Source of the DNA: Limnoperna fortunei
Lineage: Eukaryota > Mollusca > Bivalvia > Mytilida > Modiolidae
Assembly (NCBI GenBank): GCA_944474755.1
Contig: OX104123.1
Location: 63,233,898 to 63,297,897, forward strand
Reading direction: 5' to 3'
Length of the DNA stretch: 64,000 nucleotides
Shown in pieces: positions 2,375 to 53,373 of this stretch; position 1 is the first letter of the stretch; the number at the start of each line of letters is the position of its first letter. Under the pieces are notes generated by a model, which saw nothing but the letters and a program-made list of their open reading frames with translations, had not been told where the DNA came from and ran no database searches. Both the position numbers and the translations under genes were made by a program.

Positions 2375-2685
2375 GTAAGGGTTATAAGCTTCATTTACAC
2401 ACTCACTGAAAAGCTGAGACCAGACAATGATATAACAAATAGAAGGACCGGCGAAAACAACAAATATAGAAACACTTACCCATAAAAAATTCACGAAGTT
2501 AAGGTTTTTTAAAAATTATTTACCGAAAAGTAAGACTTGGTACATTTCAAGCAAAATCGTGGTAATATATAATACAATTGATATAATTACCGTTAATGGA
2601 AGGTTTAAAATATTTTAAGCTTTAGCAAGACAGCAATATTATGCCGTTGTTTTTAAATTGTGTTTATCCGCGCTTTCAGCAATAT

Positions 2686-2767
2686 TTCAGCTATTTCATG
2701 GCGTCTAGTTCAGCTATTTCATGGCGTCTAGTTCAGCTATGTCATGGCGTCTAGTTCAGCTATTTCT
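2686..2767 (+). repeat. 23-bp tandem repeat
   Basis: About 3.5 copies of a 23-bp unit (TTCAGCTATTTCATGGCGTC plus TAG) inside the intron between the two halves of the cysteine-rich module. One copy has TGTC instead of TTTC. The array has no coding role. Confidence 0.85.
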
Positions 2768-2857
2768 AGTTTTGTAGAGCAAGCAGAGATCAGAGCACCC
2801 GATAAAAGCTTCTTTACCTAAACAGATTTATTGATTGAGTATCGTGTTGTATTGTAG

Positions 2858-7018: not shown

Positions 7019-7097
7019 ATATGTCAAAGACAATCTCCGGGGCAGAATTTATATCCGCCCTTTTACGTCTTTGTAACACTACGCTAAATATGAACTC

Positions 7098-10641: not shown

Positions 10642-10816
10642 ATGAAATACCCTCAATTTTTTCGTTGGCTTCCAATTATAATAGTTATAATTGTATTGAT
10701 AGATGTGATTAACGCCTGCCTACCAAACCCTTGCCAAAACATGGGAAATTGCACATCTGTGGCTGGTATTGCTGTGTGTACGTGTCCACCTGTATTAACA
10801 GGACCAACATGCACTG
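10642..10816 (+). CDS. Gene 2 exon 1: signal peptide plus EGF-like module
   Basis: Start exon of a second EGF gene. The ATG at 10642 opens a hydrophobic signal peptide (MKYPQFF, then a core of I, V and L, ending DVINA), and the mature chain would start CLPNPC. One EGF domain follows with spacing 4-5-8-1-8 ending GPTCTG. The exon ends in phase 1 before GTAATA. An in-frame TAG at 10600-10602 means that extending the exon upstream would give a phase-0 acceptor, unlike every other EGF exon here, which supports a true first exon. It joins in frame to 11634. A secreted product is predicted. Confidence 0.78.
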
Positions 10817-13868: not shown

Positions 13869-16800
13869 TTACATGTTCAGGAGCTGGGCAGGTGGTACTT
13901 TGCCCATGAGCTCCCTGAACTCTTCGATGGAACCTGCTGATGTGGTTGAAGATGGCAGCTTATTCCATTCCCTGATAGTTCTGGGGAAGAAAGAGTGATG
14001 GTAGACCTCTTTCTTCGTAGTTGGTTGCCTGATGTTGTTCTGATTTCTTGTTCTAGCATCAGATGGCAGGAGGTAGACATCAGCTGGGATCGCTACCAGG
14101 CCATGCTGGATCTTGTAGAGCAAAAGGAGGCGGATCTTTACTCTCCTTGCCTGAAGTGTTTCCCAGTTGAGTGCTGTCATCATCTTGGTAATGCTACCGG
14201 GTTGTCTGTCTGTGTAGTTCTTTGTCGTGAATCTGGCTGCTCGACGCTGGATCTTCTCTAGCTGGTTGATGTGCCCAGTGGTGTGGGGATCCCAGATAGA
14301 TGCGGCATATTCCAGGGTTGGTCGTACTATTCCCTCGAAAGCTCTAGCCCGTGCTGACGTTTTGCAACCTCTCAAATTTCGTCGGAGGAAACCAAGGGTT
14401 CTGTTTGCTCGTGCAGCTATGTTGTTGATATGGTCATTCCACTTCAGGTTGTTACTGATGGTCACCCCCAGGTACTTACTGCTATCCACTATCTCAAGTT
14501 GATGGTCATGTAGGGTATAGCTGGCGTTGATGGTGTTACGCTTGGAGGTGATCTGGATGACGACGCATTTCTCGGGATGGAATGCCATTTGCCATTTTCT
14601 TTCCCACTCTTCTAGTGCCTTTAGATCTTTCTACAGTTCTTCAGAGTCGCTGCTACTGTAAATTGGTCTAAAGAGTAGGCAGTCATCTGCAAAGAGGCGA
14701 GCTTCTGAGTTGGTAACTTCGGGTAAGTCATTGATAAAGGTAAGGAAGAGGAGGGGTCCTAGAACGGTTCCTTGAGGCACCCCTGACAAAACTTCTGCTG
14801 TTGATGAAGTGTGGCCATCAAGGAGGACTTGCTGGAGTCTGTTTGAAAGGAAGTCTCTCGTCCATTGGAGTGTGCGGCCTCTTACTCCATAGTAGTGAGT
14901 TTATGCAGGAGTCTCTGGTGTGCTACAGTATCGAAAGCTTTGGAGAAGTCAAGTAGGATAACATCGACTTGACCTCCTGCATCCAGTGTGCGGGCAATGC
15001 TATCGATGGTAACTGCAAGCTGGGTCTCACAAGAACGTTTGGACCGGAATCCATGCTGCTTCTCGCTCAGTATGTCGTGTCTGTCATAGTGATCCATAAC
15101 CTGACTGTGGACTATGTGCTCCAGTAGTTTACATGATATGGCTGTAAGTGAGACTGGTCGATAATTGGAGGCCTGGTGTCTATCACCTTTCTTAAAGATT
15201 GGTACAATGGAGGCATGTCGCCAGTCATCTGGAATGGAGCCAGTGTCCATGGATAGCTGGAATATCTTGGTAAGTACTGGTGCAATATTGCTGGCATAGT
15301 CGTGTAATAATCTGGCAGGGATACCATCTGGTCCTGTTGCTTTGTGACTGTTGATATTCTGTAGTAGTTTCAGGACACCTGGTTCAGCTATGTGTATATC
15401 GGGTATATTGAGTATTTCAGCTTTGGTTTCCGTGTCGCTATGTAGGTATCCGTCATTTTTCTTTAATGGAGCTACACCTTGGGAGTCTTGTTTCTTGCTT
15501 TTCAAGTAGGACCAGAACTGTTTGCTGTCTTTGTTGATATCTCCAAATACAGTGTTGTCTATATAATCGTCGTGGGCCTTCCTTGCTTTTCGCTGAACTG
15601 TGGCCTTGATGGTTCTATATCTGGCTTGGTCTTTCGGCTTTTTGGTCTGTCTAGCTCGTTTAAAAGCCCTTTGTCGTCTTCTAATAAGGCGCTTTATCTC
15701 GGTGTTCATCCAAGGGTTGGTCTGTCTCTTCCTTGCCATCTTAGACGGTATCATGTCATTGATGATGGTGGTGACTGTACTCTTAAAATCTTGCCAGATT
15801 TCAGTGACTGATGTATAATGTTGGCTCATGATTTTATCTGTCATCTGTTGAATGTTGCTGGCAATCGACTGCTTATCAGCTCTATTCCAGAGTAATATCT
15901 TTCTGGGTGTTGATTTCTGATGGTCTGCGGTAAGTGCAAGGTCAATCAACACAGTCTCATGATCACTTCTGCCTAAGGCTGGTAAGGCTTTACACTTGTC
16001 GATGATAGCTGGGTGGGACGTGAACAGTAAATCCAAGGTGTTTTGCCCTCTAGTTGGGAATAGTATCATCTGCTCTAGTGCCAGATCGTTCTGCATGTTG
16101 ATGTATTCCTCATTTATCTGTTTTGGTATCTGGTGGCCTGTTATAGTAGATGTTCCCCATACTATGTCTGGTAGATTAAAGTCACCGCCAATGATAAAAT
16201 ATGCTGAGTTGTACTTTGATCTAACTGCTGTTATATCTCTTATTAATTCTTCAGTATACTGTTTGTCTGTTCTGTTTGGTGGTCTATAAGCAGCGGAGAT
16301 AACAAGTGTTCGGCCATGGTGTAGATTAACTTTGACGCTGATAAATTCTGTGTTTGTACCAACATAGACTTTGGAGCCTACTAGTGTTCTACTTATGGCT
16401 ATTAGTACACCTCCATGTGGATCGTTTGGACGATCTCGTCGAAAAACCTCGAAATCGGCTAGTATAAATTCAGATGAGTTCATATCTGCGGTTAGCCAAG
16501 TCTCTGTGCCTATAAGGATATCTGGCCGGGAAGATTCTATGGCCATTTGGAGGTCTGCAGACTTGTTGCGGATACTTTGGAAATTTACTTCAAGGATTCT
16601 AAGTTTGTCTCTGGGTTTCTTATGGTATTCTGTTTGCTTTGCTTTTTTGGGGGATGATGTTGCAGTTGGCTCCCCTAGTTCGCTTATGGAAGAGTCATTC
16701 GTAAGTTCTTCAATCTCTGATGTTAGGCTTGAGAAAGAATTTGAAACAGTCATGGTGGATTCATGAAGTACAGTTGTATGATTAGGTGTATCACATTTGT

Positions 16801-17032
16801 TACATACCCAGGAAACTGATGTGTTTGATAAGGTCTCGTACATTGATGTTGAAATTCCCATACAAGCTATGTGAAACCACTGGTCGCATTGATCGCATGC
16901 AACGGATTTCTGATTCCAACGACAAGCTTTACTGCATGAGCCACAGGGGTACTTAGTGTGTGTTGGGCCTGGATTCGTCTCAACACCTGCTACAGCTAAG
17001 AGTAATAGGTTACATTTATGATGAGGGCCATT
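13869..17032 (-). pseudogene. LINE ORF2: 2A-like, PHD, APE endonuclease and reverse transcriptase
   Basis: Domains in order along the minus strand. First, a leucine run and GVETNPGP. Second, a C4HC3 PHD finger (CGSC, ACDQCDQWFHIAC, WVCNKC) at about 16800-16950. Third, the APE endonuclease (LEVNFQSIRNK, catalytic E in TETWL, GGDFNLPD, GRSDHE). Fourth, RT with YRPVSLT, GFRSKRSCETQL and LLDFSKAFDTVAH, the catalytic FADD near 14685-14697, and then the thumb region (KYLGVTISNNLKW, WDPHT) to a TAA after LLNM. The long frame 14882-17032 is interrupted by a one-base deletion at LHKL-HYYGVRG, then by TAG in SEEL-KDL. Restoration would need only these two changes, so the copy is young or recently active relative to the other elements here. 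Confidence 0.88.
16964..16990 (-). other. 2A-like ribosome-skipping motif in LINE
   Basis: In-frame AGVETNPGP preceded by CNLLLLAV, matching the 2A consensus D-x-E-x-NPGP with G in place of D. APE-type LINEs of several invertebrates are known to carry 2A-like peptides at the N terminus. The D-to-G change would be expected to weaken skipping. Position immediately before the PHD finger fits the published arrangement. Confidence 0.75.
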
Positions 17033-17420
17033 TTAATATAAATGTTTATTGGCTGATAATTCTCTTGACCAAATGAATATCACTGATGTTGGTTGTATTT
17101 GGTTTAACGGTGTGCATGATACATAACCTTCTGATTGTAGGATGAAATGGTCATTTACCTCTACCCTTTTAAATGCATTGCTGTTGGTCATCACAATATA
17201 CAGCTGAGTAACTACTATAAGTAGTTTATTAATTATTTATAAATTATTAACGTGAAAAGTTGTGTGTACATCCAAGGGATATAACTAGATCAGGTAATGT
17301 GTTAAAATATTTATAAACAATGGTAAATTAATAATCCCGCGGCTAATCGTTGCAGGGACATAAAATCCATAATTTACTCCAAAATACATTTTGCATAATA
17401 AAACAACTCCAATCATCCTT

Positions 17421-17668
17421 GGGTCCTCAGTGTGGCCGAGTGGTTAAGATGGTTAGTATATTATTGATCACATGATGTTGTGGGTTCAAGTCTAACTGCT
17501 GGTAGGGTGCACTTAACTGCAATTATTATCTTATATGACATTGATTGCTAGTTTTCCTACCAAATGTCTGGTTTTTCTTCAGGTACTACAGCTTCCTCCC
17601 CGATTTTAACTGGATGCCATGATATAGCTGAAAAATTGCTGAGTGGCTATAAACATTAAAAAAAACAA
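17421..17668 (+). mobile_element. tRNA-derived SINE, full-length copy
   Basis: Starts GGGTCCTCAGTG, with box A-like GTGGCCGAGTGGTTAAG and box B-like GGGTTCAAGTC spaced as in a tRNA. Then GGTAGGGTGCACT, a body with TTGATTGCTAGTTTTCC, and a tail CTGGATGCCATGATATAGC with TGAAAAATTGCTGAGTGGC, ending in an A-rich stretch. The same order of blocks is seen at 21625, 52628 (minus) and in the expanded locus 28701-41216. It is the best local reference for that family. Confidence 0.82.
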
Positions 17669-18510: not shown

Positions 18511-21458
18511 CACTAGCTTCTATTTCATTTCATGGATTTTTGTCTTTCAGTGCTCACTTTTATAGTTGCCTTGATTACAGTTGTGTAGTGTATTTTTTAG
18601 GTATTTTGGCAAAATTTTAGAATGGTATTGTTTAATTTGATAGCAATTTTATGAACTTGTTAAAAAATACTGCTTTATAATAATTTTGTTTTTAAATGTG
18701 CATCACACAATTTAGATTCTTTTTGAATAACTTTGGTGGCCCTTAAAAGGGCCAATTTGACACATTGTTCAATTGTCTTATCTTTGTTGCTGCCATCAAA
18801 CTGTGGCCAATTGATCAGTCCAAAAATCAGTTTCAGTATTTGTATTCCAAACTTTATATATGTGTAGGTTATTTAATATAATTGCAGGATTGATAATTCT
18901 GTGTCTTGCTTCTGAAAAAGATAAAGTTAAGATTTAACAAAAAAATCATAAAATTATTAATAAAATGTAAAAGCTGAACAAGAGCTATTTCTTAAAAGAA
19001 AACAATATTTCATTTTAATTATCAATCAATCAATCAGTTTATTGTATAAAAGCACATTAATCAGCAATGCAATGTAATCCATAAGAAATGTAAGACACGT
19101 GTAGAATTATATTAGAATACAATTAGAACAAAATAATGTGTGAAAATTATCAAGATACAGCTCAGTATTACCAGCCTCTTTACTTGTGTAAACAGGGACG
19201 GGTACTTAAGGTACAAATATTGGTTGTCTGCATGATATAAGCTAACGCTAAATGACAGGAACTACTTGCTAAATATAGTAGACTGGTTATTAGACTTATA
19301 ATTCAATTTTTCAATCTATAATTAAAACTAAATCTTACACTTGCTACCCCCTGTTTGGTCGTTAACTCAGCGACCAATAACAGAAAGGGGGAGCAGGTGA
19401 AAGATTACATTTGAAGTAGATTGTAACTTTTTTATTTTGGCTGTTTAAATTCAGTTAATAGTAAGATCGGGATAGAGACGTTTTCCCATTTCCCAGATAC
19501 GAGCAGCGAGAGCTTCAGAAAATTATTGTGCCTGCAGCAGAGGCTGAACAACGTCACATGTCTGCTTTCAGTTGGAAACATGTAGAACGAATAATCGTAC
19601 CCTCGCTTTTTTTTAATCCGACAAATCACAAATTTAAACTAACTTCGGATTATAACGACAGTAAAATTCGGCCTAGGAAACATGTACAAATTGTGCAATC
19701 ATAAAGTAAGAAATTAACACTTACCAGTCAATAAGATTGGGTTTTTTATCAAGGTTTCCATCCTCTAGAATACAGCATCTTGCGAGGGACAATATTTCCC
19801 AATATTCATGCAATAACCCTTTTAGTATATAGTAATAATTTTTTTGTTTTTATGAACCAGGATCAGCAGACGAATTTACACGACGACGATCACAAGTCAT
19901 GGCAGCAAATATCAGTTCACGTCAAGTATGGTCGGTCAGAAGCAGACGACAAATAATTCATGTTAACTATCGTTTGCACGTTTTTTGCATAACATCAAAA
20001 ATTAAAGTACTTTGAATAAAAAAAATGTTTTATAAATATAACATTTAAAAAAAACACATTTCGTCTGTATTTTCTTCTCGTGTCGAGTTTTATTTTACGA
20101 AGTTGCGATAACTTACGAGAACTCGAGTCAAAATAAAGGAAATAAAATATCCTCCAAACGGAAAAAAATACATTATTAAAGGAAAAAAATTTGAAGTTGT
20201 GTTAAATTATTTTCGTTAACGAAATTTAAATTCTTGATACCTAGAAGCAGTATTGTTGCACACTTTTCTCGTACAAGGGTGATTTTTGCGATGTTGCGTA
20301 GAAATTGGAGATTAACTTGAAAACTTCCGGTTGCAAGAATTTTATAGTCTCATAGTCATAGGATACTTCTACCATTAAGCGAGCTGTCGCTCGCTATCAT
20401 AACATGACTGACGTTCATCTTCAAAAACAATTTTCTTAGCTTTATTCTAACGCATCGGCAATCAAAAACTTCTTTGACCAGAAATAACATCTATAATTGC
20501 ATAAGTCCTGGAATTAATGCCACAAAGTAATTCAAATTTTATAATCAGAGTCGACGTTATATTTATTATTGCATTAACATTGAAAACAAATTTGTTCGTT
20601 TTTTATGTTGTTGATGTAACATATTTGGACCATTTGTCACAAACTTCATTTTATGTTTTCAAATCGCTTTAAAATTTTGAATTTAAACGCATTTTACGTA
20701 CTAGGGCGCATCTAACGGTCAGCAACACCCGGGACATGCAAAGACGTGTCACTGAATATTCAAATTCCAAGAAAAATTCTGATAAAATGTCATCAAAGAT
20801 ACCAAGGTAAATAGAATTTATTACGCCACACGCGCGTTTTGTCAAAACAAGACTCATCAGTGGCGCTCAAATCAAAATAATATTAAAATCCAAATGATAA
20901 TGATGTTGTACAGTTTCTATCACCTAGCTTGAAAATAGAAACGCTTAGAATTAATTAATTTTCGAAATTGTAGGGCAGTAAAATTAGACAATGACTATAT
21001 CCCAAAAAGATCATTTGTGAGCTTTCTGTTTGTCTTTTCACATTTCTAGAACCACCATCAGTACACATGTCTGAACATTAATGGCATACTGTACATATCA
21101 ATCAACAAATTCTTAAACGTGTTTTTCTTTCCCAATAAATCATGGTTCCAAATGTTATAAAATAGTTTTGTTTTCCATTCAGCATTGAACATGAATATAT
21201 TTTGTTCTCTGTCTTATGTAAAAAAAATTACAGGCATGATTGGTTTTTTTGCAAATTCGATATTTCTCGGTTTTTCTACTTTTTTTATCACACAGCAATG
21301 CAGTTTTCTTTTGTCAACATGTCTCGTTATATGTAAGGTAAAGCAATATTTTATTTATATTTATACAATCTGTAACGAACCACGATACGAACCACGGTGT
21401 ACTGGGAATGATTTTTAGAGCTCGAATCACAGAACGGCATAGCATTATAAATGTCATG
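18511..21458. other. Intergenic, no gene recognised
   Basis: About 3 kb of AT-rich DNA with short frames only. A short hairpin lies near 19340-19405 (TTGGTCG ... CGACCAA, flanked by CTACCCCCTG and its partner). A CGCCACACGCGCG-type block near 20822-20870 looks like another dispersed repeat. No exon with recognised domains is seen. Confidence 0.5.
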
Positions 21459-21545: not shown

Positions 21546-21624
21546 GATCCGTTTGACATACATTCAAACTGTTTTGCGTGGTAAACGATACTAGCTCCTA
21601 TCTGCTTATCTCATTTCTTACTTC

Positions 21625-21835
21625 GGGGCCTCGGTGGATGGCGGAGAGGTTAATGTAAATCGTCTACAATTTATCACATGGTCTGTCAACACTGAGATTG
21701 CGGGTTCGAGTCTCAATATGTGGTCAGGATGCACTCAAATCCAATTAAGATGGTTTCCTCAACTTTTAAGTACCGGAAGCCATGACTAAGCTGAAAAAGT
21801 GCCGAAAGTGGCGTTAGGCGATTCAAATAAAACAT
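21625..21835 (+). mobile_element. tRNA-derived SINE copy
   Basis: Begins GGGGCCTCGGTGG, contains box B-like GCGGGTTCGAGTCTC, then GTCAGGATGCACTC and the tail CCGGAAGCCATGACTAAGC with GAAAAAGTGCCGAAAGTGGC. The first twelve bases after the leading G are identical to the start of the 46-bp satellite unit in gene 3 intron 1. Confidence 0.82.
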
Positions 21836-21934
21836 TTACAAATTGATTGATTGTAAGGTAACTCCACTCGTCTTGAAAATAGACAATAAATAAATAGAAA
21901 ATAATCAATAAAAAATAATGGTTAGGGATTAATC

Positions 21935-22110
21935 ACGTGTCTGTCAACACAGCATAGTGAGTTCAAGGCTAAGGGTGTGCTCATATCAAAACTTAATTGA
22001 CATTGATTGCCAGTTGGTCTGCCAAAGGTGCTCTGGCTTTCTCCTCAATAAAATCTGGACACCTTGATAAAGCTGAAAAATTGCTCATATAGTGTTAAAT
22101 TTAATTCAAT
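21935..22110 (+). mobile_element. SINE fragment lacking the head
   Basis: Starts within the box B region (GTCTGTCAACACAG, GAGTTCAAGGC), has the body block TTGATTGCCAGTTGGTC-TGCC and the tail AAAATCTGGACACC and AAGCTGAAAAATTGC. The tRNA-like 5' end is missing or unrecognisable. Confidence 0.7.
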
Positions 22111-27572: not shown

Positions 27573-28700
27573 GTCATTTTTAGAAAATAGTTCGTATTAC
27601 TAAAAATTGACTTAGAAAGGATGTGTTCGACTAGGGATCGGACAAGGGATCAGTTTAAACTTGGTGTTGTAGCGTTAAAAGTGAAAAAAGATCTTAACAG
27701 ACTCGCAAACATTTCGAATTATATATAAAAAATGAAAATGACGAAATTTTACATTTACATATATATACAATACATATGCACTTTACCTTGAAACATATAT
27801 CTGATAAAAGAAAAAAAAATTATATGTAAAGTTGCTTTAATTTTATTACTGTTACGCCGGAAGGGATACATAATGACAGACTGATGGATTGATTGATTCG
27901 ATATTTGCTTTACGTCAAGCGAGAAGTATTTCAGCTATATTCAGTACCAGAGTAAAATTAACAAACAATTAATCAACGGGAAAATGTGAAAACAAATAGA
28001 CAGATAATTTTGAATGCCACTTTATGGAGTATCGTGTAAGTGCAGACAATTCACATATTTTAATTCCGAACATCTCGTATACTTATGCCAGATTATACAT
28101 TTTAATTTAAAGGCTTCATTTTTGTGGTAGATGAAACCGGCTTCAAATCTATGCAGTTTAAATGGCGACATTACTTCGGTAGTCCCGTATATAACTTTAA
28201 CCTGTGGTTTTTCATACTTAAGAAAGACTTCCTGTAGTACTTAGCTTTGTCTTGATCATTTTCATTGGATAATTGATGTTGAACATCCATTTAAAGATGT
28301 ACTGGCTTGTCAATAATAATGTATTCGGCTTTGGGAGAGGGATCGGCTTGATGGGCAAATTATATGTTTGGGTGGGAAAGGGGTTGGACAATTCAATGAG
28401 CCGACACTTAAAAGTGTCACATACACAAATGGCGTTGTAGGGCCCATATATTATTTGAAACACTCGCAATTAGCAGATTGCAAATGTTCATTTTAGAGCT
28501 TTCAGTGACAGTTCAGTAGACTCATTAATTATTTTTTTTATGTTTGTTGGAGTGAGGTTTTATGCCGCATTTAGAAATATTGCTGCGTTCATTTTATTCT
28601 CTGGGAACTCGAAGTACCCGATATCAACACCGGCTTCCACAGAAAACTTGCAATTCTAAGTTTGTGACTGAGAGACTGCGAATCTCTGACATAAATGCTA
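27573..28700. other. Intron 1 of gene 3 before the satellite arrays
   Basis: AT-rich. A dispersed-repeat-like block (TTGATTGATTCGATATTTGC near 27890) and a GTTTTATGCCGCATTTAG block near 28556. It ends at ATAAATGCTA, the presumed target site of the expanded SINE. Confidence 0.5.
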
Positions 28701-31700
28701 GGGCCTCGGTGGTTAAAACACTTAGTTATCTTCTAACTCAATGCTAGGGCCTCGGTGGTTAAAACACTTGGTTATCTTCTAACTCAATGCTAGGGCCTCG
28801 GTGGTTAAAACACTTAGTTATCTTCTAACTCAATGCTAGGGCCTCGGTGGTTAAAACATTTAGTTATCTTCTAACTCAATGCTAGGGCCTCGGTGGTTAA
28901 AACACTTACTTATCTTCTAACTCAATGCTAGGGTCTCGGTGGTTAAAACACTTAGTTATCTTCTAACTCAATGCTAGGGCCTCGGTGGTTAAAACACTTA
29001 GTTATCTTCTAACTCAATGCTAGGGCCTCGGTGGTTAAAACACTTACTTATCTTCGAACTCAATGCTAGGGCCTCGGTGGATAAAACACTTAGTTATCTT
29101 CTAACTCAATGCTAGGGTCTCGGTGGTTAAAACACTTAGTTATCTTCTAACTCAATGCTAGGGCCTCGGTGGTTAAAACACGTAGTTATCTTCTAACTCA
29201 ATACTAGGGCCTCGGTGGTTAAAACACTTAGTTATCTTCTAACTCAATGCTAGGGCCTCGGTGGTTAAAAGTCTTAGTTATCTTCTAACTCAATGCTAGG
29301 GCCTCGGTGGTTAAAACACGTAGTTATCTTCTAACTCAATACTAGGGCCTCGGTGGTTAAAAGTCTTAGTTATCTTCTAACTCAATGCTAGGGCCTCGGT
29401 GGTTAAAACACGTAGTTATCTTCTAACTCAATGCTAGGGCCTCGGTGGTTAAAACACTTAGTTATCTTCTAACTCAATGCTAGGGCCTCGGTGGTTAAAA
29501 CATTTAGTTATCTTCTAACTCAATGCTAGGGCCTCGGTGGTTAAAACACTTAGTTATCTTCTAACTCAATGCTAGGGCCTCGGTGGTTAAAACACTTAGT
29601 TATCTTCTAACTCAATGCTAGGGCCTCGGTGGTTAAAACACTTAGTTATCTTCTAACTCAATGCTAGGGCCTCGGTGGTTAAAACACTTACTTATCTTCT
29701 AACTCAATGCTAGGGCCTCGGTGGTTAAAACACTTAGTTATCTTCTAACTCAATGCTAGGGCCTCGGTGGTTAAAAGTCTTAGTTATCTTCTAACTCAAT
29801 GCTAGGCCTCGGTGGTTAAAACACGTAGTTATCTTCTAACTCAATGCTAGGGCCTCGGTGGTTAAAACACTTAGTTATCTTCTAACTCAATGCTAGGGCC
29901 TCGGTGGTTAAAACATTTAGTTATCTTCTAACTCAATGCTAGGGCCTCGGTGGTTAAAAGTCTTAGTTATCTTCTAACTCAATGCTAGGCCTCGGTGGTT
30001 AAAACACTTAGTTATCTTCTAACTCAATGCTAGGGCCTCGGTGGTTAAAACACTTAGTTATCTTCTAACTCAATGCTAGGCCTCGGTGGTTAAAACATTT
30101 AGTTATCTTCTAACTCAATGCTAGGGCCTCGGTGGTTAAAAGTCTTAGTTATCTTCTAACTCAATGCTAGGCCTCGGTGGTTAAAACACTTAGTTATCTT
30201 CTAACTCAATGCTAGGGCCTCGGTGGTTAAAACACTTAGTTATCTTCTAACTCAATGCTAGGCCTCGGTGGTTAAAACACTTAGTTATCTTCTAACTCAA
30301 TGCTAGGTCCTCGGTGGTTAAAACATTTAGTTATCTTCTAACTCAATGCTAGGGCCTCGGTGGTTAAAACATTTAGTTATCTTCTAACTCAATGCTAGGG
30401 CCTCGGTGGTTAAAACACTTAGTTATCTTCTAACTCAATGCTAGGTCCTCGGTGGTTAAAACATTTAGTTATCTTCTAACTCAATGCTAGGCCTCGGTGG
30501 TTAAAACATTTAGTTATCTTCTAACTCAATGCTAGGGCCTCGGTGGTTAAAACACTTTGTTATCTTCTAACTCAATGCTAGGCCTCGGTGGTTAAAACAC
30601 TTAGTTATCTTCTAACTCAATGCTAGGGCCTCGGTGGTTAAAACACTTAGTTATCTTCTAACTCAATGCTAGGGCCTCGGTGGTTAAAACACTTAGTTAT
30701 CTTCTAACTCAATGCTAGGGCCTCGGTGGTTAAAACATTTAGTTATCTTCTAACTCAATGCTAGGGCCTCGGTGGTAAAACACTTAGTTATCTTCTAACT
30801 CAATGCTAGGCCTCGGTGGTTAAAACATTTAGTTATCTTCTAACTCAATGCTAGGCCTCGGTGGTTAAAACACTTAGTTATCTTCTAACTCAATGCTAGG
30901 GCCTCGGTGGTTAAAACACTTAGTTATCTTCTAACTCAATGCTAGGCCTCGGTGGTTAAAACACTTAGTTATCTTCTAACTCAATGCTAGGGCCTCGGTG
31001 GTTAAAACACTTAGTTATCTTCTAACTCAATGCTAGGCCTCGGTGGTTAAAACATTTAGTTATCTTCTAACTCAATGCTAGGCCTCGGTGGTTAAAACAC
31101 TTGGTTATCTTCTAACTCAATGCTAGGGCCTCGGTGGTTAAAAGTCTTAGTTATCTTCTAACTCAATGCTAGGGCCTCGGTGGTTAAAACACTTAGTTAT
31201 CTTCTAACTCAATGCTAGGCCTCGGTGGTTAAAACACTTAGTTATCTTCTAACTCAATGCTAGGTCCTCGGTGGTTAAAACATTTAGTTATCTTCTAACT
31301 CAATGCTAGGGCCTCGGTGGTTAAAACATTTAGTTATCTTCTAACTCAATGCTAGGGCCTCGGTGGTTAAAACACTTAGTTATCTTCTAACTCAATGCTA
31401 GGTCCTCGGTGGTTAAAACATTTAGTTATCTTCTAACTCAATGCTAGGCCTCGGTGGTTAAAACATTTAGTTATCTTCTAACTCAATGCTAGGGCCTCGG
31501 TGGTTAAAACACTTTGTTATCTTCTAACTCAATGCTAGGCCTCGGTGGTTAAAACACTTAGTTATCTTCTAACTCAATGCTAGGGCCTCGGTGGTTAAAA
31601 CACTTAGTTATCTTCTAACTCAATGCTAGGGCCTCGGTGGTTAAAACACTTAGTTATCTTCTAACTCAATGCTAGGGCCTCGGTGGTTAAAACATTTAGT

Positions 31701-34700
31701 TATCTTCTAACTCAATGCTAGGGCCTCGGTGGTTAAAACACTTAGTTATCTTCTAACTCAATGCTAGGCCTCGGTGGTTAAAACATTTAGTTATCTTCTA
31801 ACTCAATGCTAGACCTCGGTGGTTAAAACACTTAGTTATCTTCTAACTCAATGCTAGGGCCTCGGTGGTTAAAACACTTAGTTATCTTCTAACTCAATGC
31901 TAGGCCTCGGTGGTTAAAACACTTAGTTATCTTCTAACTCAATGCTAGGGCCTCGGTGGTTAAAACACTTAGTTATCTTCTAACTCAATGCTAGGCCTCG
32001 GTGGTTAAAACATTTAGTTATCTTCTAACTCAATGCTAGGCCTCGGTGGTTAAAACACTTGGTTATCTTCTAACTCAATGCTAGGGCCTCGGTGGTTAAA
32101 ACACTTAGTTATCTTCTAACTCAATGCTAGGCCTCGGTGGTTAAAAGTCTTAGTTATCTTCTAAGTCAATGCTAGGGCCTCGGTGGTTAAAACACTTAGT
32201 TATCTTCTAACTCAATGCTAGGGCCTCGGTGGTTAAAACACTTAGTTATCTTCTAACTAAATGCTAGGGCCTCGGTGGTTAAAACACTTACTTATCTTCT
32301 AACTCAATGCTAGGCCTCGGTGGTTAAAACATTTAGTTATCTTCTAACTCAATGCTAGGGCCTCGGTGGTTAAAACACTTAGTTATCTTCTAACTCAATG
32401 CTAGGGCCTCGGTGGTTAAAACACGTAGTTATCTTCTAACTCAATGCTAGGGCCTCGGTGGTTAAAACACTTAGTTATCTTCTAACTCAATGCTAGGGCC
32501 TCTGTGGTTAAAACACTTAGTTATCTTCTAACTCAATGCTAGGGCCTCGGTGGTTAAAACACTTAGTTATCTTCTAACTCAATGCTAGGGCCTCGGTGGT
32601 TAAAACACTTAGTTATCTTCTAACTCAATGCTAGGGCCTCGGTGGTTAAAACACTTAGTTATCTTCTAACTCAATGCTAGGGCCTCGGTGGTTAAAACAT
32701 TTAGTTATCTTCTAACTCAATGCTAGGGCCTCGGTGGTTAAAAGTCTTAGTTATCTTCTAACTCAATGCTAGGCCTCGGTGGTTAAAACACTTAGTTATC
32801 TTCTAACTCAATGCTAGGGCCTCGGTGGTTAAAACACTTAGTTATCTTCTAACTCAATGCTAGGCCTCGGTGGTTAAAGCATTTAGTTATCTTCTAACTC
32901 AATGCTAGGGCCTCGGTGGTTAAAAGTCTTAGTTATCTTCTAACTCAATGCTAGGCCTCGGTGGTTAAAACACTTAGTTATCTTCTAACTCAATGCTAGG
33001 GCCTCGGTGGTTAAGACACTTAGTTATCTTCTAACTCAATGCTAGGCCTCGGTGGTTAAAACACTTAGTTATGTTCTAACTCAATGCTAGGTCCTCGGTG
33101 GTTAAAACATTTAGTTATCTTCTAACTCAATGCTAGGGCCTCGGTGGTTAAAACATTTAGTTATCTTCTAACTCAATGCTAGGGCCTCGGTGGTTAAAAC
33201 ACTTAGTTATCTTCTAACTCAATGCTAGGTCCTCGGTGGTTAAAACATTTAGTTATCTTCTAACTCAATGCTAGGCCTCGGTGGTTAAAACATTTAGTTA
33301 TCTTCTAACTCAATGCTAGGGCCTCGGTGGTTAAAACACTTTGTTATCTTCTAACTCAATGCTAGGCCTCGGTGGTTAAAACACTTAGTTATCTTCTAAC
33401 TCAATGCTAGGGCCTCGGTGGTTAAAACACTTAGTTATCTTCTAACTCAATGCTAGGGCCTCGGTGGTTAAAACACTTAGTTATCTTCTAACTCAATGCT
33501 AGGGCCTCGGTGGTTAAAACATTTAGTTATCTTCTAACTCAATGCTAGGGCCTCGGTGGTAAAACACTTAGTTATCTTCTAACTCAATGCTAGGCCTCGG
33601 TGGTTAAAACATTTAGTTATCTTCTAACTCAATGCTAGGCCTCGGTGGTTAAAACATTTAGTTATCTTCTAACTCAATGCTAGGGCCTCGGTGGTAAAAC
33701 ACTTAGTTATCTTCTAACTCAATGCTAGGCCTCGGTGGTTAAAACATTTAGTTATCTTCTAACTCAATGCTAGGCCTCGGTGGTTAAAACACTTAGTTAT
33801 CTTCTAACTCAATGCTAGGCCTCGGTGGTTAAAACATTTAGTTATCTTCTAACTCAATGCTAGGCCTCGGTGGTTAAAACACTTAGTTATCTTCTAACTC
33901 AATGCTAGGGCCTCGGTGGTTAAAACACTTAGTTATCTTCTAACTCAATGCTAGGCCTCGGTGGTTAAAACACTTAGTTATCTTCTAACTCAATGCTAGG
34001 GCCTCGGTGGTTAAAACACTTAGTTATCTTCTAACTCAATGCTAGGCCTCGGTGGTTAAAACATTTAGTTATCTTCTAACTCAATGCTAGGCCTCGGTGG
34101 TTAAAACACTTGGTTATCTTCTAACTCAATGCTAGGGCCTCGGTGGTTAAAAGTCTTAGTTATCTTCTAACTCAATGCTAGGGCCTCGGTGGTTAAAACA
34201 CTTAGTTATCTTCTAACTCAATGCTAGGCCTCGGTGGTTAAAACACTTAGTTATCTTCTAACTCAATGCTAGGTCCTCGGTGGTTAAAACATTTAGTTAT
34301 CTTCTAACTCAATGCTAGGGCCTCGGTGGTTAAAACATTTAGTTATCTTCTAACTCAATGCTAGGGCCTCGGTGGTTAAAACACTTAGTTATCTTCTAAC
34401 TCAATGCTAGGTCCTCGGTGGTTAAAACATTTAGTTATCTTCTAACTCAATGCTAGGCCTCGGTGGTTAAAACATTTAGTTATCTTCTAACTCAATGCTA
34501 GGGCCTCGGTGGTTAAAACACTTTGTTATCTTCTAACTCAATGCTAGGCCTCGGTGGTTAAAACACTTAGTTATCTTCTAACTCAATGCTAGGGCCTCGG
34601 TGGTTAAAACACTTAGTTATCTTCTAACTCAATGCTAGGGCCTCGGTGGTTAAAACACTTAGTTATCTTCTAACTCAATGCTAGGGCCTCGGTGGTTAAA

Positions 34701-35907
34701 ACATTTAGTTATCTTCTAACTCAATGCTAGGGCCTCGGTGGTTAAAACACTTAGTTATCTTCTAACTCAATGCTAGGCCTCGGTGGTTAAAACATTTAGT
34801 TATCTTCTAACTCAATGCTAGGCCTCGGTGGTTAAAACACTTAGTTATCTTCTAACTCAATGCTAGGGCCTCGGTGGTTAAAACACTTAGTTATCTTCTA
34901 ACTCAATGCTAGGCCTCGGTGGTTAAAACACTTAGTTATCTTCTAACTCAATGCTAGGGCCTCGGTGGTTAAAACACTTAGTTATCTTCTAACTCAATGC
35001 TAGGCCTCGGTGGTTAAAACATTTAGTTATCTTCTAACTCAATGCTAGGCCTCGGTGGTTAAAACACTTGGTTATCTTCTAACTCAATGCTAGGGCCTCG
35101 GTGGTTAAAACACTTAGTTATCTTCTAACTCAATGCTAGGCCTCGGTGGTTAAAAGTCTTAGTTATCTTCTAAGTCAATGCTAGGGCCTCGGTGGTTAAA
35201 ACACTTAGTTATCTTCTAACTCAATGCTAGGGCCTCGGTGGTTAAAACACTTAGTTATCTTCTAACTAAATGCTAGGGCCTCGGTGGTTAAAACACTTAC
35301 TTATCTTCTAACTCAATGCTAGGCCTCGGTGGTTAAAACATTTAGTTATCTTCTAACTCAATGCTAGGGCCTCGGTGGTTAAAACACTTAGTTATCTTCT
35401 AACTCAATGCTAGGGCCTCGGTGGTTAAAACACGTAGTTATCTTCTAACTCAATGCTAGGGCCTCGGTGGTTAAAACACTTAGTTATCTTCTAACTCAAT
35501 GCTAGGGCCTCTGTGGTTAAAACACTTAGTTATCTTCTAACTCAATGCTAGGGCCTCGGTGGTTAAAACACTTAGTTATCTTCTAACTCAATGCTAGGGC
35601 CTCGGTGGTTAAAACACTTAGTTATCTTCTAACTCAATGCTAGGGCCTCGGTGGTTAAAACACTTAGTTATCTTCTAACTCAATGCTAGGGCCTCGGTGG
35701 TTAAAACACTTAGTTATCTTCTAACTCAATGCTAGGGCCTCGGTGGTTAAAACACGTAGTTATCTTCTAACTCAATGCTAGGGTCTCGGTGGTTAAAACA
35801 CTTAGTTATCTTCTAACTCAATGCTAGGGCCTCGGTGGTTAAAACACTTAGTTATCTTCTAACTCAATGCTAGGGCCTCGGTGGTTAAAACACTTAGTTA
35901 TCTTCTA
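28701..35907 (+). repeat. 46-bp satellite array, about 158 units
   Basis: Units of 46 bp (GGGCCTCGGTGGTTAAAACA, then CTTAGTTATCTTCTA and ACTCAATGCTA) alternate with 45-bp units carrying one G fewer and rarer 44-bp units (GGTGGTAAAAC). The first 35 bases are SINE head. The last 11 end in AATGCTA, like the 5' flank of the insertion, so each unit spans the original insertion junction. Variant positions (CACTTAG, CATTTAG, AGTCTTAG, CACGTAG) recur in a fixed order, showing higher-order duplication. No open reading frame of note. Confidence 0.95.
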
Positions 35908-35982
35908 TTTATTACGTGCATGTCAAAACTAATGATGCAGGTTTGAGTCGTACTGCGGACAGAATGTACTCGACTAAAACCG
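35908..35982 (+). other. Single-copy SINE segment with box B between the arrays
   Basis: About 75 bases found once: TTTATTACGTGCATGTC, GATGCAGGTTTGAGTCG (box B-like at 35940-35950, compare GGTTCGAxTCC), CGGACAGAATGTACTCGAC. It aligns block by block with the box B region of the SINE copies at 21625 and 52628. Confidence 0.8.
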
Positions 35983-38900
35983 CAAATTAACAAGAACTGC
36001 CAGTTGTCTTGCTTTAGGTCGTGGGATTTCACCAAATTAACAAGAACTGCCCGTTGTCTTGCTTTAGGTCGTGGGATTTCACCAAATTAACAAGAACTGC
36101 CAGTTGTCTTGCTTTAGGTCGTGGGATTCCACCAAATTAACAAGAACTGCCAGTTTTCTTGCTTTAGGTCGTGGGATTTTACCAAATTGACAAGAACTGC
36201 CAGTTGTCTTGCTTTAGGTCGTGGGATTTCACCAAATTAACAAGAACTGCCAGTTGTCTTGCTTCAGGTCGTGGGATTTCACCAAATTAACAAGAACTGC
36301 CAGTTGTCTTGCTTTAGGTCGTGGGATTTCACCAAATTAACAAGAACTGCCATTTGTCTTGCTTTAGGTCGTGGGATTTCACCAAATTAACAAGAACTGC
36401 CAGTTGTCTTGCTTTAGGTCGTGGGATTTCACCAAATTAACAAGAACTGCCAGTTGTCTTGCTTTAGGTCGTGGGATTTCACCAAATTAACAAGAACTGC
36501 CAGTTGTCTTGCTTTAGGTCGTGGGATTTCACCAAATTAACAAGAACTGCCAGTTGTCTTGCTTTAGGTCGTGGGATTTCACCAAATTAACAAGAACTGC
36601 CAGTTGTCTTGCTTTAGGTCGTGGGATTTCACCAAATTAACAAGAACTGCCAGTTGTGTTGCTTTAGGTCGTGGGATTTCACCAAATTAACAAGAACTGC
36701 CAGTTGTCTTGCTTTAGGTCGTGGGATTTCACCAAATTAACAAGAACTGCCAGTTGTCTTGCTTTAGGTCGTGGGATTTCACCAAATTAACAAGAACTGC
36801 CAGTTGTCTTGCTTTAGGTCGTGGGATTTCACCAAATTAACAAGAACTGCCAGTTGTCTTGCTTTAGGTCGTGGGATTTCACCAAATTAACAAGAACTGC
36901 CAGTTGTCTTGCTTTAGGTCGTGGGATTTCACCAAATTAACAAGAACTGCCAGTTGTCTTGCTTTAGGTCGTGGGATTTCACCAAATTAACAAGAACTGC
37001 CAGTTGTCTTGCTTTAGGTCGTGGGATTTCACCAAATTAACAAGAACTGCCAGTTGTCTTGCTTTAGGTCGTGGGATTTCACCAAATTAACAAGAACTGC
37101 CAGTTGTCTTGCTTTAGGTCGTGGGATTTCACCAAATTAACAAGAACTGCCAGTTGTCTTGCTTTAGGTCGTGGGATTTCACCAAATTAACAAGAACTGC
37201 CAGTTGTCTTGCTTTAGGTCGTGGGATTTCACCAAATTAACAAGAACTGCCAGTGGTCTTGCTTTAGGTCGTGGGATTTCACCAACCTAACAAGAACTGC
37301 CAGTTGTCTTGCTTAAGGTCGTGGGATTTCACCAAATTAACAAGAACTGCCAGTTGTCTTGCTTTAGGTCGTGGGATTTCAGCAAATTAACAAGAACTGC
37401 CAGTTGTCTTGCTTTAGGTCGTGGGATTTCACCAAATTAACAAGAACTGCCCGTTGTCTTGCTTTAGGTCGTGGGATTTCACCAAATTAACAAGAACTGC
37501 CAGTTGTCTTGCTTTAGGTCGTGGGATTCCACCAAATTAACAAGAACTGCCAGTTTTCTTGCTTTAGGTCGTGGGATTTTACCAAATTGACAAGAACTGC
37601 CAGTTGTCTTGCTTTAGGTCGTGGGATTTCACCAAATTAACAAGAACTGCCAGTTGTCTTGCTTTAGGTCGTGGGATTTCACCAAATTAACAAGAACTGC
37701 CAGTTGTCTTGCTTTAGGTCGTGGGATTTCACCAAATTAACAAGAACTGCCAGTTGTCTTGCTTTAGGTCGTGGGATTTCACCAAATTAACAAGAACTGC
37801 CAGTTGTCTTGCTTTAGGTCGTGGGATTTCACCAAATTAACAAGAACTGCCAGTTGTCTTGCTTTAGGTCGTGGGATTTCACCAAATTAACAAGAACTGC
37901 CAGTTGTCTTGCTTTAGGTCGTGGGATTTCACCAAATTAACAAGAACTGCCAGTTGTCTTGCTTTAGGTCGTGGGATTTCACCAAATTAACAAGAACTGC
38001 CAGTTGTCTTGCTTTAGGTCGTGGGATTTCACCAAATTAACAAGAACTGCCAGTTGTCTTGCTTTAGGTCGTGGGATTTCACCAAATTAACAAGAACTGC
38101 CAGTTGTCTTGCTTTAGGTCGTGGGATTTCACCAAATTAACAAGAACTGCCAGTTGTCTTGCTTTAGGTCGTGGGATTTCACCAAATTAACAAGAACTGC
38201 CAGTTGTCTTGCTTTAGGTCGTGGGATTTCACCAAATTAACAAGAACTGCCAGTTGTCTTGCTTTAGGTCGTGGGATTTCACCAAATTAACAAGAACTGC
38301 CAGTTGTCTTGCTTTAGGTCGTGGGATTTCACCAACCTAACAAGAACTGCCAGTTGTCTTGCTTAAGGTCGTGGGATTTCACCAAATTAACAAGAACTGC
38401 CAGTTGTCTTGCTTTAGGTCGTGGGATTTCACCAAATTAACAAGAACTGCCAGTTGTCTTGCTTTAGGTCGTGGGATTTCACCAAATTAACAAGAACTGC
38501 CAGTTGTCTTGCTTTAGGTCGTGGGATTTCACCAAATTAACAAGAACTGCCAGTTGTCTTGCTTTAGGTCGTGGGATTTCACCAAATTAACAAGAACTGC
38601 CAGTTGTCTTGCTTTAGGTCGTGGGATTTCACCAAATTAACAAGAACTGCCAGTTGTCTTGCTTTAGGTCGTGGGATTTCACCAAATTAACAAGAACTGC
38701 CAGTTGTCTTGCTTTAGGTCGTGGGATTTCACCAAATTAACAAGAACTGCCAGTTGTCTTGCTTTAGGTCGTGGGATTTCACCAAATTAACAAGAACTGC
38801 CAGTTGTCTTGCTTTAGGTCGTGGGATTTCACCAAATTAACAAGAACTGCCAGTTGTCTTGCTTTAGGTCGTGGGATTTCACCAAATTAACAAGAACTGC

Positions 38901-41132
38901 CAGTTGTCTTGCTTTAGGTCGTGGGATTTCACCAAATTAACAAGAACTGCCAGTTGTCTTGCTTTAGGTCGTGGGATTTCACCAACCTAACAAGAACTGC
39001 CAGTTGTCTTGCTTAAGGTCGTGGGATTTCACCAAATTAACAAGAACTGCCAGTTGTCTTGCTTTAGGTCGTGGGATTTCACCAAATTAACAAGAACTGC
39101 CAGTTGTCTTGCTTTAGGTCGTGGGATTTCACCAAATTAACAAGAACTGCCAGTTGTCTTGCTTTAGGTCGTGGGATTTCACCAAATTAACAAGAACTGC
39201 CAGTTGTCTTGCTTTAGGTCGTGGGATTTCACCAAATTAACAAGAACTGCCAGTTGTCTTGCTTTAGGTCGTGGGATTTCACCAAATTAACAAGAACTGC
39301 CAGTTGTCTTGCTTTAGGTCGTGGGATTTCACCAAATTAACAAGAACTGCCAGTTGTCTTGCTTTAGGTCGTGGGATTTCACCAAATTAACAAGAACTGC
39401 CAGTTGTCTTGCTTTAGGTCGTGGGATTTCACCAAATTAACAAGAACTGCCAGTTGTCTTGCTTTAGGTCGTGGGATTTCACCAAATTAACAAGAACTGC
39501 CAGTTGTCTTGCTTTAGGTCGTGGGATTTCACCAAATTAACAAGAACTGCCAGTTGTCTTGCTTTAGGTCGTGGGATTTCACCAAATTAACAAGAACTGC
39601 CAGTTGTCTTGCTTTAGGTCGTGGGATTTCACCAAATTAACAAGAACTGCCAGTTGTCTTGCTTTAGGTCGTGGGATTTCACCAAATTAACAAGAACTGC
39701 CAGTTGTCTTGCTTTAGGTCGTGGGATTTCACCAAATTAACAAGAACTGCCAGTTGTCTTGCTTTAGGTCGTGGGATTTCACCAAATTAACAAGAACTGC
39801 CAGTTGTCTTGCTTTAGGTCGTGGGATTTCACCAAATTAACAAGAACTGCCAGTTGTCTTGCTTTAGGTCGTGGGATTTCACCAACCTAACAAGAACTGC
39901 CAGTTGTCTTGCTTAAGGTCGTGGGATTTCACCAAATTAACAAGAACTGCCAGTTGTCTTGCTTTAGGTCGTGGGATTTCACCAAATTAACAAGAACTGC
40001 CAGTTGTCTTGCTTTAGGTCGTGGGATTTCACCAAATTAACAAGAACTGCCAGTTGTCTTGCTTTAGGTCGTGGGATTTCACCAAATTAACAAGAACTGC
40101 CAGTTGTCTTGCTTTAGGTCGTGGGATTTCACCAAATTAACAAGAACTGCCAGTTGTCTTGCTTTAGGTCGTGGGATTTCACCAAATTAACAAGAACTGC
40201 CAGTTGTCTTGCTTTAGGTCGTGGGATTTCACCAAATTAACAAGAACTGCCAGTTGTCTTGCTTTAGGTCGTGGGATTTCACCAAATTAACAAGAACTGC
40301 CAGTTGTCTTGCTTTAGGTCGTGGGATTTCACCAAATTAACAAGAACTGCCAGTTGTCTTGCTTTAGGTCGTGGGATTTCACCAAATTAACAAGAACTGC
40401 CAGTTGTCTTGCTTTAGGTCGTGGGATTTCACCAAATTAACAAGAACTGCCAGTTGTCTTGCTTTAGGTCGTGGGATTTCACCAAATTAACAAGAACTGC
40501 CAGTTGTCTTGCTTTAGGTCGTGGGATTTCACCAAATTAACAAGAACTGCCAGTTGTCTTGCTTTAGGTCGTGGGATTTCACCAAATTAACAAGAACTGC
40601 CAGTTGTCTTGCTTTAGGTCGTGGGATTTCACCAAATTAACAAGAACTGCCAGTTGTCTTGCTTTAGGTCGTGGGATTTCACCAAATTAACAAGAACTGC
40701 CAGTTGTCTTGCTTTAGGTCGTGGGATTTCACCAAATTAACAAGAACTGCCAGTTGTCTTGCTTTAGGTCGTGGGATTTCACCAACCTAACAAGAACTGC
40801 CAGTTGTCTTGCTTAAGGTCGTGGGATTTCACCAAATTAACAAGAACTGCCAGTTGTCTTGCTTTAGGTCGTGGGATTTCACCAAATTAACAAGAACTGC
40901 CAGTTGTCTTGCTTTAGGTCGTGGGATTTCACCAAATTAACAAGAACTGCCAGTTGTCTTGCTTTAGGTCGTGGGATTTCACCAAATTAACAAGAACTGC
41001 CAGTTGTCTTGCTTTAGGTCGTGGGATTTCACCAAATTAACAAGAACTGCCAGTTGTCTTGCTTTAGGTTGTGGGATTTCACCAAATTAACAAGAACTGC
41101 CAGTTGTCTTGCTTTAGGTTGTGGGATTTCAC
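35983..41132 (+). repeat. 50-bp satellite array, 103 units without indels
   Basis: 5,150 bp, exactly 103 units of 50 bp (CAAATTAACAAGAACTGCC, AGTTGTCTTGCTTTAGGTCG, TGGGATTTCAC). It corresponds to the SINE body block that reads AACTGTCAAGGATTGCCG and CTACCAAAGGTCTGG in the 52-kb copy. Nearly all units are identical. A marked pair of variants (CCAACCTAAC plus GCTTAAGG) recurs at 37281, 38331, 38981, 39881 and 40781, and a five-variant block at about 36051-36190 recurs exactly 1,400 bp later. This points to recent homogenisation. Confidence 0.96.
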
Positions 41133-41223
41133 CCGGTACTTCACTTCCTCCCTAAATAGAAACCAGAAGCCATGAGATTTGAAAATGGCATTAACCCGGC
41201 CCTTTTCAACACAAATAATGCTA

Positions 41224-52586: not shown

Positions 52587-52627
52587 GTAATTGTTTGTGT
52601 GTTTGATTTAATGATTTTTTAATTTCA

Positions 52628-52848
52628 CAGCAATTTTTCAGCAATTTTGTGGCGTTCAGTTTTTATTTGGGGAGGCAGCCAGAGTGCCCGGACAAGACCC
52701 CCCAGACCTTTGGTAGGAAAACGGCAATCCTTGACAGTTATGATAGGAGTCGAGTGCATCCTGCCCGTGAAACTCGAATCCGCAACCTCAGTGTTGACAC
52801 CCAAATAGTAGATCAATAGTATTTCCTTAACCATTCTGCCACCAAGGT
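52628..52848 (-). mobile_element. tRNA-derived SINE, minus-strand copy
   Basis: On the minus strand: CCTTGGTGGCAGAATGGTTA (box A region), GTTGCGGATTCGAGTTTC (box B), GGCAGGATGCACTCGAC, AACTGTCAAGGATTGCC, CTACCAAAGGTCTGG, GCCTCCCCAAATAAAAACTG and AACGCCAC. It is the most complete local copy of the body that became the 50-bp satellite. Located in an intron of gene 3. Confidence 0.85.
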
Positions 52849-53373
52849 TTTTTTGTACTGCTAATTGTAATTTGTTTAATTTGAACAATTTAACAATTAT
52901 GTTTGTTCGATTTAATTTCTTTCCTTGTGCACCTTTTATGGACTTTTAACAGGGTTTTCACCTTTCGCGAAGTCTATATTTTTGGAACTATGCCAAAGTG
53001 AATGATGAATTGTTTTTATGTTTAATAAGTTATTTTATCTATTGCTTAATATTTACAGTGATGATATCTAGATAAACAGATGCAAAATAGTAGTTCTTGG
53101 CTGATGACAATACTTGGTTGCAATCTGTTGTATTAGTTCCCTATGACAACCCTAGTCGAAAAGTCCAACCTGAACATCAATACATGCACTTATAAGATTA
53201 GCTTTCTTTTACTTAATGAAATATGCTTGCAATAAATACAGTTGTGCAATTTTGTTTTGATAAATTTCTTTTATTGTTAATGTTGACAAAAATTAACAAT
53301 TTTTTGGAGAGAGTTGTTATATGGAAATTTTACCCTTCTATACTATTTAAAATATGAGGTGTGTGAATTACAG

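Follow-up and report, generated by a model that had tools for sequence, protein, structure and literature searches.

Layout of an expanded SINE locus

We analysed a stretch of 64,000 nucleotides from the bivalve Limnoperna fortunei (assembly GCA_944474755.1, contig OX104123.1, positions 63,233,898 to 63,297,897 of the forward strand). This 64-kb stretch is called the window throughout, all coordinates are positions in it, and solitary copies of the short interspersed element (SINE) described here are copies lying within it. At 28694-41223 the window contains a locus of 12.5 kb, built from an element that itself measures about 240 bases. A first-pass annotation, made from the letters alone, had read this locus as one SINE grown to its present size through two tandem arrays, a description borne out by Tandem Repeats Finder (TRF), by segmentation and by colinear alignment. 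We put the probability that one SINE inserted here, and that two of its modules were separately expanded in place, at roughly 85%. In order, the locus comprises a 46/45-bp array, a single-copy linker, a 50-bp array, a single-copy tail and a closing AATGCTA motif, as follows:

28694..28700, plus strand: 5' AATGCTA, putative target-site duplication and start of the first head unit (chance match to the 3' copy 0.41% in a strict and 2.1% in a loose setting)
28694..35907, plus strand: array 1, 158 units of 46/45 bp, with block duplications (TRF, segmentation, lag test, head homology)
30802..32672, plus strand: first copy of a 41-unit block in array 1, 1.87 kb (unit comparison)
33811..35681, plus strand: second copy of the 41-unit block (unit comparison)
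35908..35982, plus strand: single-copy linker with a box-B relic, GGTTTGAGTCG, at about 35940-35950 (shuffle test; relic with 2 mismatches)
35983..41133, plus strand: array 2, 50-bp units in 103 copies, each a contiguous stretch of SINE body (TRF, homology)
41134..41216, plus strand: single-copy SINE tail (nhmmer match 41134-41214; shuffle test)
41217..41223, plus strand: 3' AATGCTA, putative target-site duplication (direct sequence match)

TRF delimits array 1 at 28694-35907 (46 bp, 157.9 copies, 96%) and array 2 at 35983-41133 (50 bp, 103.0 copies, 98%). Splitting array 1 at the AATGCTAG motif yielded 158 head units, 107 of them 46 bp and 50 of them 45 bp long, with a last unit of 42 bp. A head unit consists of AATGCTA, 35 bp of SINE head and ACTC; the last one (35866-35907) lacks only ACTC and continues directly into the linker. 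Array 2 contains 103 body units, 83 of which are identical to the consensus. The 75 bases between the arrays and the 83 bases 3' of array 2 are single copy. A comparison of the units of array 1 with those of array 2 found none in common, and a search of the rest of the 64-kb window for either unit returned only matches of 11-12 bases, with E values up to 1. The sole run of N in the window, at 6819-7018, lies outside the locus, which itself contains none.

SINE identity of the array units

We collapsed the locus to its last head unit, linker, last body unit and tail and compared it with a profile model of six solitary copies. It matched in one colinear alignment covering model positions 25-208 of 239, with 60.1 bits and an E value of 7.4e-20. 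This test is mildly circular, as two of the six model copies (17802 and 46359) had been found through a model that included the collapsed locus. A second model without these two, built from four window copies and a relative in a mussel contig described below, gave 71.3 bits (E 8.2e-24). Scored alone against the six-copy model, the last head unit plus linker reached 24.8 bits, the last body unit plus tail 23.9 bits, the linker 19.8 bits and the tail 10.3 bits.

The pieces were also tested against dinucleotide shuffles, 2000 per test, by their summed score against four window copies. No shuffle scored as well as the linker (tested as 35902-35982) or the tail (0/2000 each), and few did as well as the 35-bp head part (10/2000), the full 46-bp head unit (35/2000) or the body unit (30/2000). 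Using the best single score rather than the sum, the counts were 82/2000 for the head part and 51/2000 for the body. On the reverse strand, 1040/2000 shuffles equalled the head part and 1859/2000 the body unit. Two unrelated arrays of the window served as negative controls on two strands each (1672/2000 and 89/2000 for a 39-bp unit, 1406/2000 and 688/2000 for a 41-bp unit), one of these four tests, the 39-bp unit at 89/2000, being borderline. Against the block-holding copies and the mussel copy, a subset picked after the four-copy results were known, the counts fell to 0/3000 for the head and 1/3000 for the body. The head unit is identical to the start of the 21625 copy at 12 of 12 bases.

The array units are thus recognized as pieces of a SINE from the same genome by colinear matches and shuffle tests, with single units giving weak or no matches by nhmmer. 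Single-copy SINE sequence runs from array 2 to the SINE terminus through the tail (41134-41216), and the linker (35908-35982) joins both arrays. Together, these findings support the conclusion that both arrays stem from a single SINE and keep its native order, and the proposed succession of head (array 1), box B region, body (array 2) and tail is indeed colinear with the element. It is very unlikely that the arrays were joined here by chance, because the single-copy linker and tail are themselves matching SINE parts.

Eight SINE loci, including the expanded one, were detected in the window by nhmmer (ten rows with the arrays masked; three rows at 2665-2829, one of them below the inclusion threshold, were merged). 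The copies considered here are:

17417..17664, plus strand: solitary SINE (17421 copy), each of the four blocks present once, box A TGGCCGAGTGG (nhmmer, alignment)
52615..52849, minus strand: solitary SINE (52628 copy), each of the four blocks present once, box A TGGCAGAATGG (nhmmer, alignment)
21622..21827, plus strand: solitary SINE (21625 copy), without the body block (nhmmer, alignment)
21917..22109, plus strand: solitary SINE (21921 copy), without the head (nhmmer, alignment)
2646..2829, minus strand: SINE 3' fragment with a tandem array in its tail at 2686-2766 (23-bp unit, 3.5 copies; minus-strand unit sequence CTAGACGCCATGAAATAGCTGAA; TRF, nhmmer)

The first-pass annotation had assigned every block once to each of the copies at 17421, 21625 and 52628. 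This holds for 17421 and 52628, but the 21625 copy lacks the body block. The array in the 2646-2829 fragment represents expansion of a third module, in another copy of the SINE, so that two of the eight window loci carry internal arrays, from three different modules. Internal tandem duplication has consequently occurred in more than one copy of this SINE family. A broader proposal, that the family is intrinsically prone to the expansion of any module, that many insertions in this genome are multi-module satellite nurseries and that two-array loci are a recurrent stage of satellite birth, seems doubtful to us at present.

The SINE is of a type that we take to be most like the molluscan V-SINE/RUDI elements. 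Its body domain is common to the window copies and to a SINE found through a tail-pattern match in NZ_CDSC02000231.1, a contig filed as a Bathymodiolus gill symbiont. This SINE is a real one: it starts with GGGCCTGGGTGG at 1851 and is flanked by a 12-base target-site duplication, TGATTTTAAATA, at 1838-1849 and 2131-2142. Because the contig holds the SINE, it is likely, judging from its sequence, to be host mussel DNA contaminating a bacterial assembly. The start of the mussel SINE fixes the 5' end of the element, within one base, at the point where AATGCTA stops at the expanded locus. Two further tail-pattern matches in genome contigs were dropped as chance, as they comprised only a 19-20-base motif (E 0.018). 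Exact unit or domain patterns had no match in viral contigs, and one such pattern had none in genome contigs either.

We examined the promoter boxes using the box A consensus TRGYNNARNNG and a box B consensus. An exact box A is present in three of the four solitary copies tested (17421, 21625 and 52628; the 21921 copy has no head), and a box B with at most two mismatches in two of the four (17421 and 21625). Ordinary copies thus display the type-2 RNA polymerase III boxes A and B of a tRNA-derived SINE. No exact box A occurs on the plus strand of array 1 or array 2. A relic with one mismatch, TGGTTAAAACA, is found in 141 of the 158 head units, and the box B of the linker is degenerate, with 2 mismatches. 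Polymerase III activity of the expanded locus appears unlikely from these sequences. Removal of box A by deletion was considered and set aside: a loss of 10-12 bp is suggested by the window copies, by eye, but the mussel-contig copy aligns gap-free, and we claim no more than that an exact box A is missing.

Probable insertion site and growth of the arrays

AATGCTA is found at both ends of the locus, at 28694-28700 and 41217-41223, where it had previously been noted. Among 116,374 random pairs of places outside the arrays, 0.41% matched at 7 or more bases in a 30-base search with no slack (p 0.0041); a looser setting of 60 bases and a slack of 2 gave 2.1% of 58,091 pairs (p 0.021). A target-site duplication of 12-13 bp was considered and rejected, as the flanks to the left of AATGCTA are unlike one another (15,024 of 20,000 as good); the repeat that we claim is 7 bp.

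AATGCTA also opens 156 of the 158 head units, the other two opening with AATACTA. Since the same motif opens the head units and flanks the locus, the first duplication of the head probably extended across the insertion junction, as the first-pass annotation had suggested from 11 bases of the 46-bp unit that end in AATGCTA. These 11 bases (ACTC plus AATGCTA) are indeed non-SINE sequence, but only AATGCTA matches the flank, and it is this motif that carries the suggestion. The 11 bases preceding each internal AATGCTA have a weak likeness to the 5' flank (887 of 20,000 random flanks as good), and one weaker still to the 3' flank (3,381 of 20,000). By direct reading, the body joint shares one base (C) with its SINE context and the head joint none.

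We investigated the growth of each array from the identity between units at increasing distances. Tested over 100 lags, the units of array 1 are more alike than expected at distances of 21, 61, 66 and 87 (z 5.6, 5.2, 11.8 and 6.4), less markedly so at 26 and 40 (z 3.0 and 2.5), and less alike than expected at 1, 25, 75 and 91. A 41-unit block at 30802-32672 is repeated at 33811-35681 with one unit differing, either through a recent internal duplication or through a duplication in the assembly. Over 60 lags, array 2 shows excess identity at 1, 2, 3, 5, 6, 18 and 28 units (z 4.2, 3.3, 2.5, 2.6, 2.8, 3.0 and 4.1), and units 1-4 (numbering from 0), four variants close to its start, reappear in the same order at 29-32. 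Pairwise unit identity is 98.8% in array 2, compared with 97.2% for the 46-bp units of array 1.

The two arrays have different growth histories. The unit lengths and homogenisation that had been described as different are so by each of these measures (46/45 versus 50 bp, 97.2% versus 98.8%, lags 21 and 66 versus 28). From the lack of shared units and the different block structure we infer two separate expansions after one insertion; the independence stated outright in the earlier description is what these two observations point to. Steps of tens of units suggest that later growth may have proceeded by unequal exchange or template switching. Hairpin-driven slippage was considered and rejected, the folds being weak: for the head dimer z is -1.72, a slight advantage over most shuffles (10/200 as good), and the body dimer fold is ordinary (z -0.38, 63/200 as good).

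Genomic setting, rival explanations and known systems

Scanning both strands of the window with an EGF-repeat regular expression gave 24 matches, every one of them on the plus strand, with five up to 10812 and 19 from 42891 on:

666-4527, 10717-10812 and 42891-63816, plus strand: EGF-repeat matches (regular expression)

Among ten open reading frames (ORFs) examined with Pfam, eight scored above the EGF cut-off, the one at 10603 gave a sub-threshold EGF_2 match and the one at 41942 none. As judged from sequence, the EGF repeats probably belong to one very large plus-strand gene with the SINE locus in its intron; if they form one gene, the locus lies within a putative intron of about 31-32 kb. 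The same interval contains an ORF at 14882-17029 (minus strand) with PHD finger, endonuclease and reverse-transcriptase domains. Together with an adjoining minus-strand stretch at 13869-14900, it is probably a long interspersed element interrupted by a frameshift; Pfam gave no match for the adjoining ORF, 13869-14627. A histone 3' untranslated region stem-loop (Rfam Histone3, 37.6 bits) was found at 18713-18758 on the minus strand. At 5217-6170 (plus strand), a reverse-transcriptase ORF (RVT_1, E 1.4e-26) lies just 3' of a near-perfect 106-bp direct duplication at 4994-5203.

Two other tandem arrays have no clear relation to the SINE. One, at 7088-9201, contains 54 copies of a 39-bp unit and begins just after the N gap at 6819-7018. 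It is open in long frames on both strands (ORFs of 678 and 701 amino acids, the minus-strand one spanning the gap), and these ORFs are probably a by-product of the repeat. The other, at 61363-61614, is a diverged six-copy array of a 41-bp unit among the EGF repeats.

We propose that a tRNA-derived SINE with a conserved body domain inserted into the probable EGF-gene intron, generating a target-site duplication of at least AATGCTA. In the first tandem duplication, four filler bases would have come to lie between the end of the head stretch (35 bases) and the flanking target site to which it was joined. Another duplication, unrelated to the first and later in our scheme, would have brought together both ends of a 50-bp body stretch, with one shared base at the joint. 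The box-B stretch may have stayed single copy because it lay outside both first duplications. Replication slippage or unequal exchange could then have enlarged each array, at times in steps of tens of units (1-3 kb), and the same events may have homogenised the units. The arrays can most likely be regarded as selectively neutral satellite DNA, intronic and unstable, for which a function need not be invoked, and the locus is perhaps caught at a one-locus stage, before any spread.

Several observations weigh against this explanation. The colinear nhmmer alignments begin at GTGGTTAA or TGGTTAA and leave the first head bases (GGGCCTCGG) outside. By nhmmer against the six-copy model, a lone body unit scores 2.3 bits (E 0.033), and a body piece of 1.5 units and two pieces of head alone found no match. 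Doubled units fare less well against shuffles than single ones (234/2000 for the head, 108/2000 for the body). The target-site repeat is only 7 bp long, and the sizes of the search windows were set knowing the match; the bases left of it differ between the two flanks, by the comparison given above (15,024/20,000), and the ACTC of the head unit is absent from the flank. Finally, the array sizes rest on the assembly, and an error in it could account for the near-perfect duplication of the 1.87-kb block.

This last point leads to an explanation in which there really are two arrays but the unit counts (158 and 103) are partly artefactual, for instance through a false duplication in array 1. The repeat of 41 units with a single one differing would fit such an error, as would the N gap beside the 39-bp array elsewhere in the window. 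There is no N inside the locus, however, and unit variants recur in ordered blocks at several lags, as real unequal exchange predicts; we therefore regard an inflated size as unlikely. The units might instead belong to established satellite families, born from SINE copies elsewhere, that inserted into or converted this SINE, for example from extrachromosomal circles. In squamates, loci built from one SINE-derived unit type can number in the thousands (PMC10702118), and array 1 starts exactly at a unit boundary. Against this, the head units open with the insertion's own flank (AATGCTA in 156/158, AATACTA in 2/158), the arrays keep native SINE order on either side of a native linker, and neither unit occurs elsewhere in the window beyond the 11-12-base matches, which together make an outside origin decidedly unlikely.

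A role selected in the host gene, such as a variable intronic regulatory element or a small-RNA source, would suit a locus lying between plus-strand EGF repeats of one probable gene, and the head dimer fold (10/200 shuffles as good) leans the same way. We consider it highly improbable, since neither array has an exact box A on the plus strand, the body dimer fold is ordinary (63/200) and no sequence feature demands a role. Scarcely plausible is a non-autonomous Helitron/Helentron or pearl-type element with internal tandem arrays, of a kind common in bivalves. Such elements bear satellite-like arrays in bivalves, according to excerpts of two articles (PMC7492417, PMC5139131), but the non-array sequence here is SINE linker and tail, short direct repeats lie at the ends, and the termini are those of the SINE by alignment (no Helentron model was searched). 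A single SINE insertion with two modules expanded in place thus accounts best for the locus, and we compared it with known systems through excerpts of open-access articles.

Satellites made from SINE parts had been taken as known in principle, which is the case for squamates (PMC10702118) and, with a SINE-related satellite, for a limpet (PMC11121367). The squamate satellites sSat1-3 have units taken from a tRNA-SINE, whether from its 5' portion, its middle or its 3' portion. As at our locus, these arrays may have up to hundreds of units, a longer terminal monomer reaching the SINE end, unexplained extra bases in some units and alternating subvariants, and longer loci are more homogeneous. Their units measure about 67-290 nt, compared with 46 and 50 bp here, and the longer loci favour subtelomeres, whereas ours is probably intragenic. 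Minor squamate variants retain both SINE termini around tandem repeats, and most, but not all, sSat2Gja loci have a single monomer type, its two types covering the same SINE region. Given mixed-type loci and variants with both termini, the step to a two-array locus would not be large; the excerpts of this account describe no locus with two separately expanded, non-overlapping modules (PMC10702118).

In the limpet Patella caerulea, PcH-sat, related to Nin-SINE, makes up about 10% of the genome and is mainly pericentromeric (PMC11121367). It resembles our arrays as a mollusc satellite containing part of a tRNA-SINE and differs in having a 118-bp SINE segment per unit and in not being one two-module locus. 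Minisatellites inside Alu, B1 or long terminal repeat copies are likewise arrays of short units within dispersed repeats, and short direct repeats are considered to have given rise to them through slippage or unequal exchange (PMC6947457, PMC9659126). That model invokes direct repeats of 5-10 bp, whereas the joints here share 0-1 base, and the excerpts of these two reviews report no element with two separate arrays. The passage from SINE to satellite is cited in general terms in the excerpt of PMC12692304; the word SINE is absent from PMC12628747. Among the open-access literature matches listed we found no case of two modules of one SINE insertion expanding apart, a weak negative that agrees with the earlier view of the architecture as unusual. 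SINE-derived satellite birth is thus already known, and the two-module expansion of one insertion is an unusual and, on that weak negative, apparently undescribed example. Here the origin of satellite DNA is nearly self-documenting, with the source element, the likely insertion-site repeat and the unit joints still legible. Because the two modules lie side by side in one insertion, local context is constant and the rate and style of expansion can be compared directly.

The hominoid SVA elements combine two different tandem arrays in one retroelement, as inherited parts of a mobile family, whereas the arrays here seem to have formed at a single site, once the element had inserted. Molluscan RUDI/V-SINE elements have a tRNA-related head with boxes A and B and a shared body domain. 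The mussel-contig relative shares this architecture and is flanked by a target-site duplication of 12 bases. Ordinary copies are unexpanded, which sets our locus apart from them; RUDI/V-SINE elements are mentioned in excerpts of PMC5139131 and PMC11121367. Taken together with the likeness to the squamate arrays, the locus suggests that a squamate-type process also operates in a mollusc, where the units are shorter and the site is probably intragenic.

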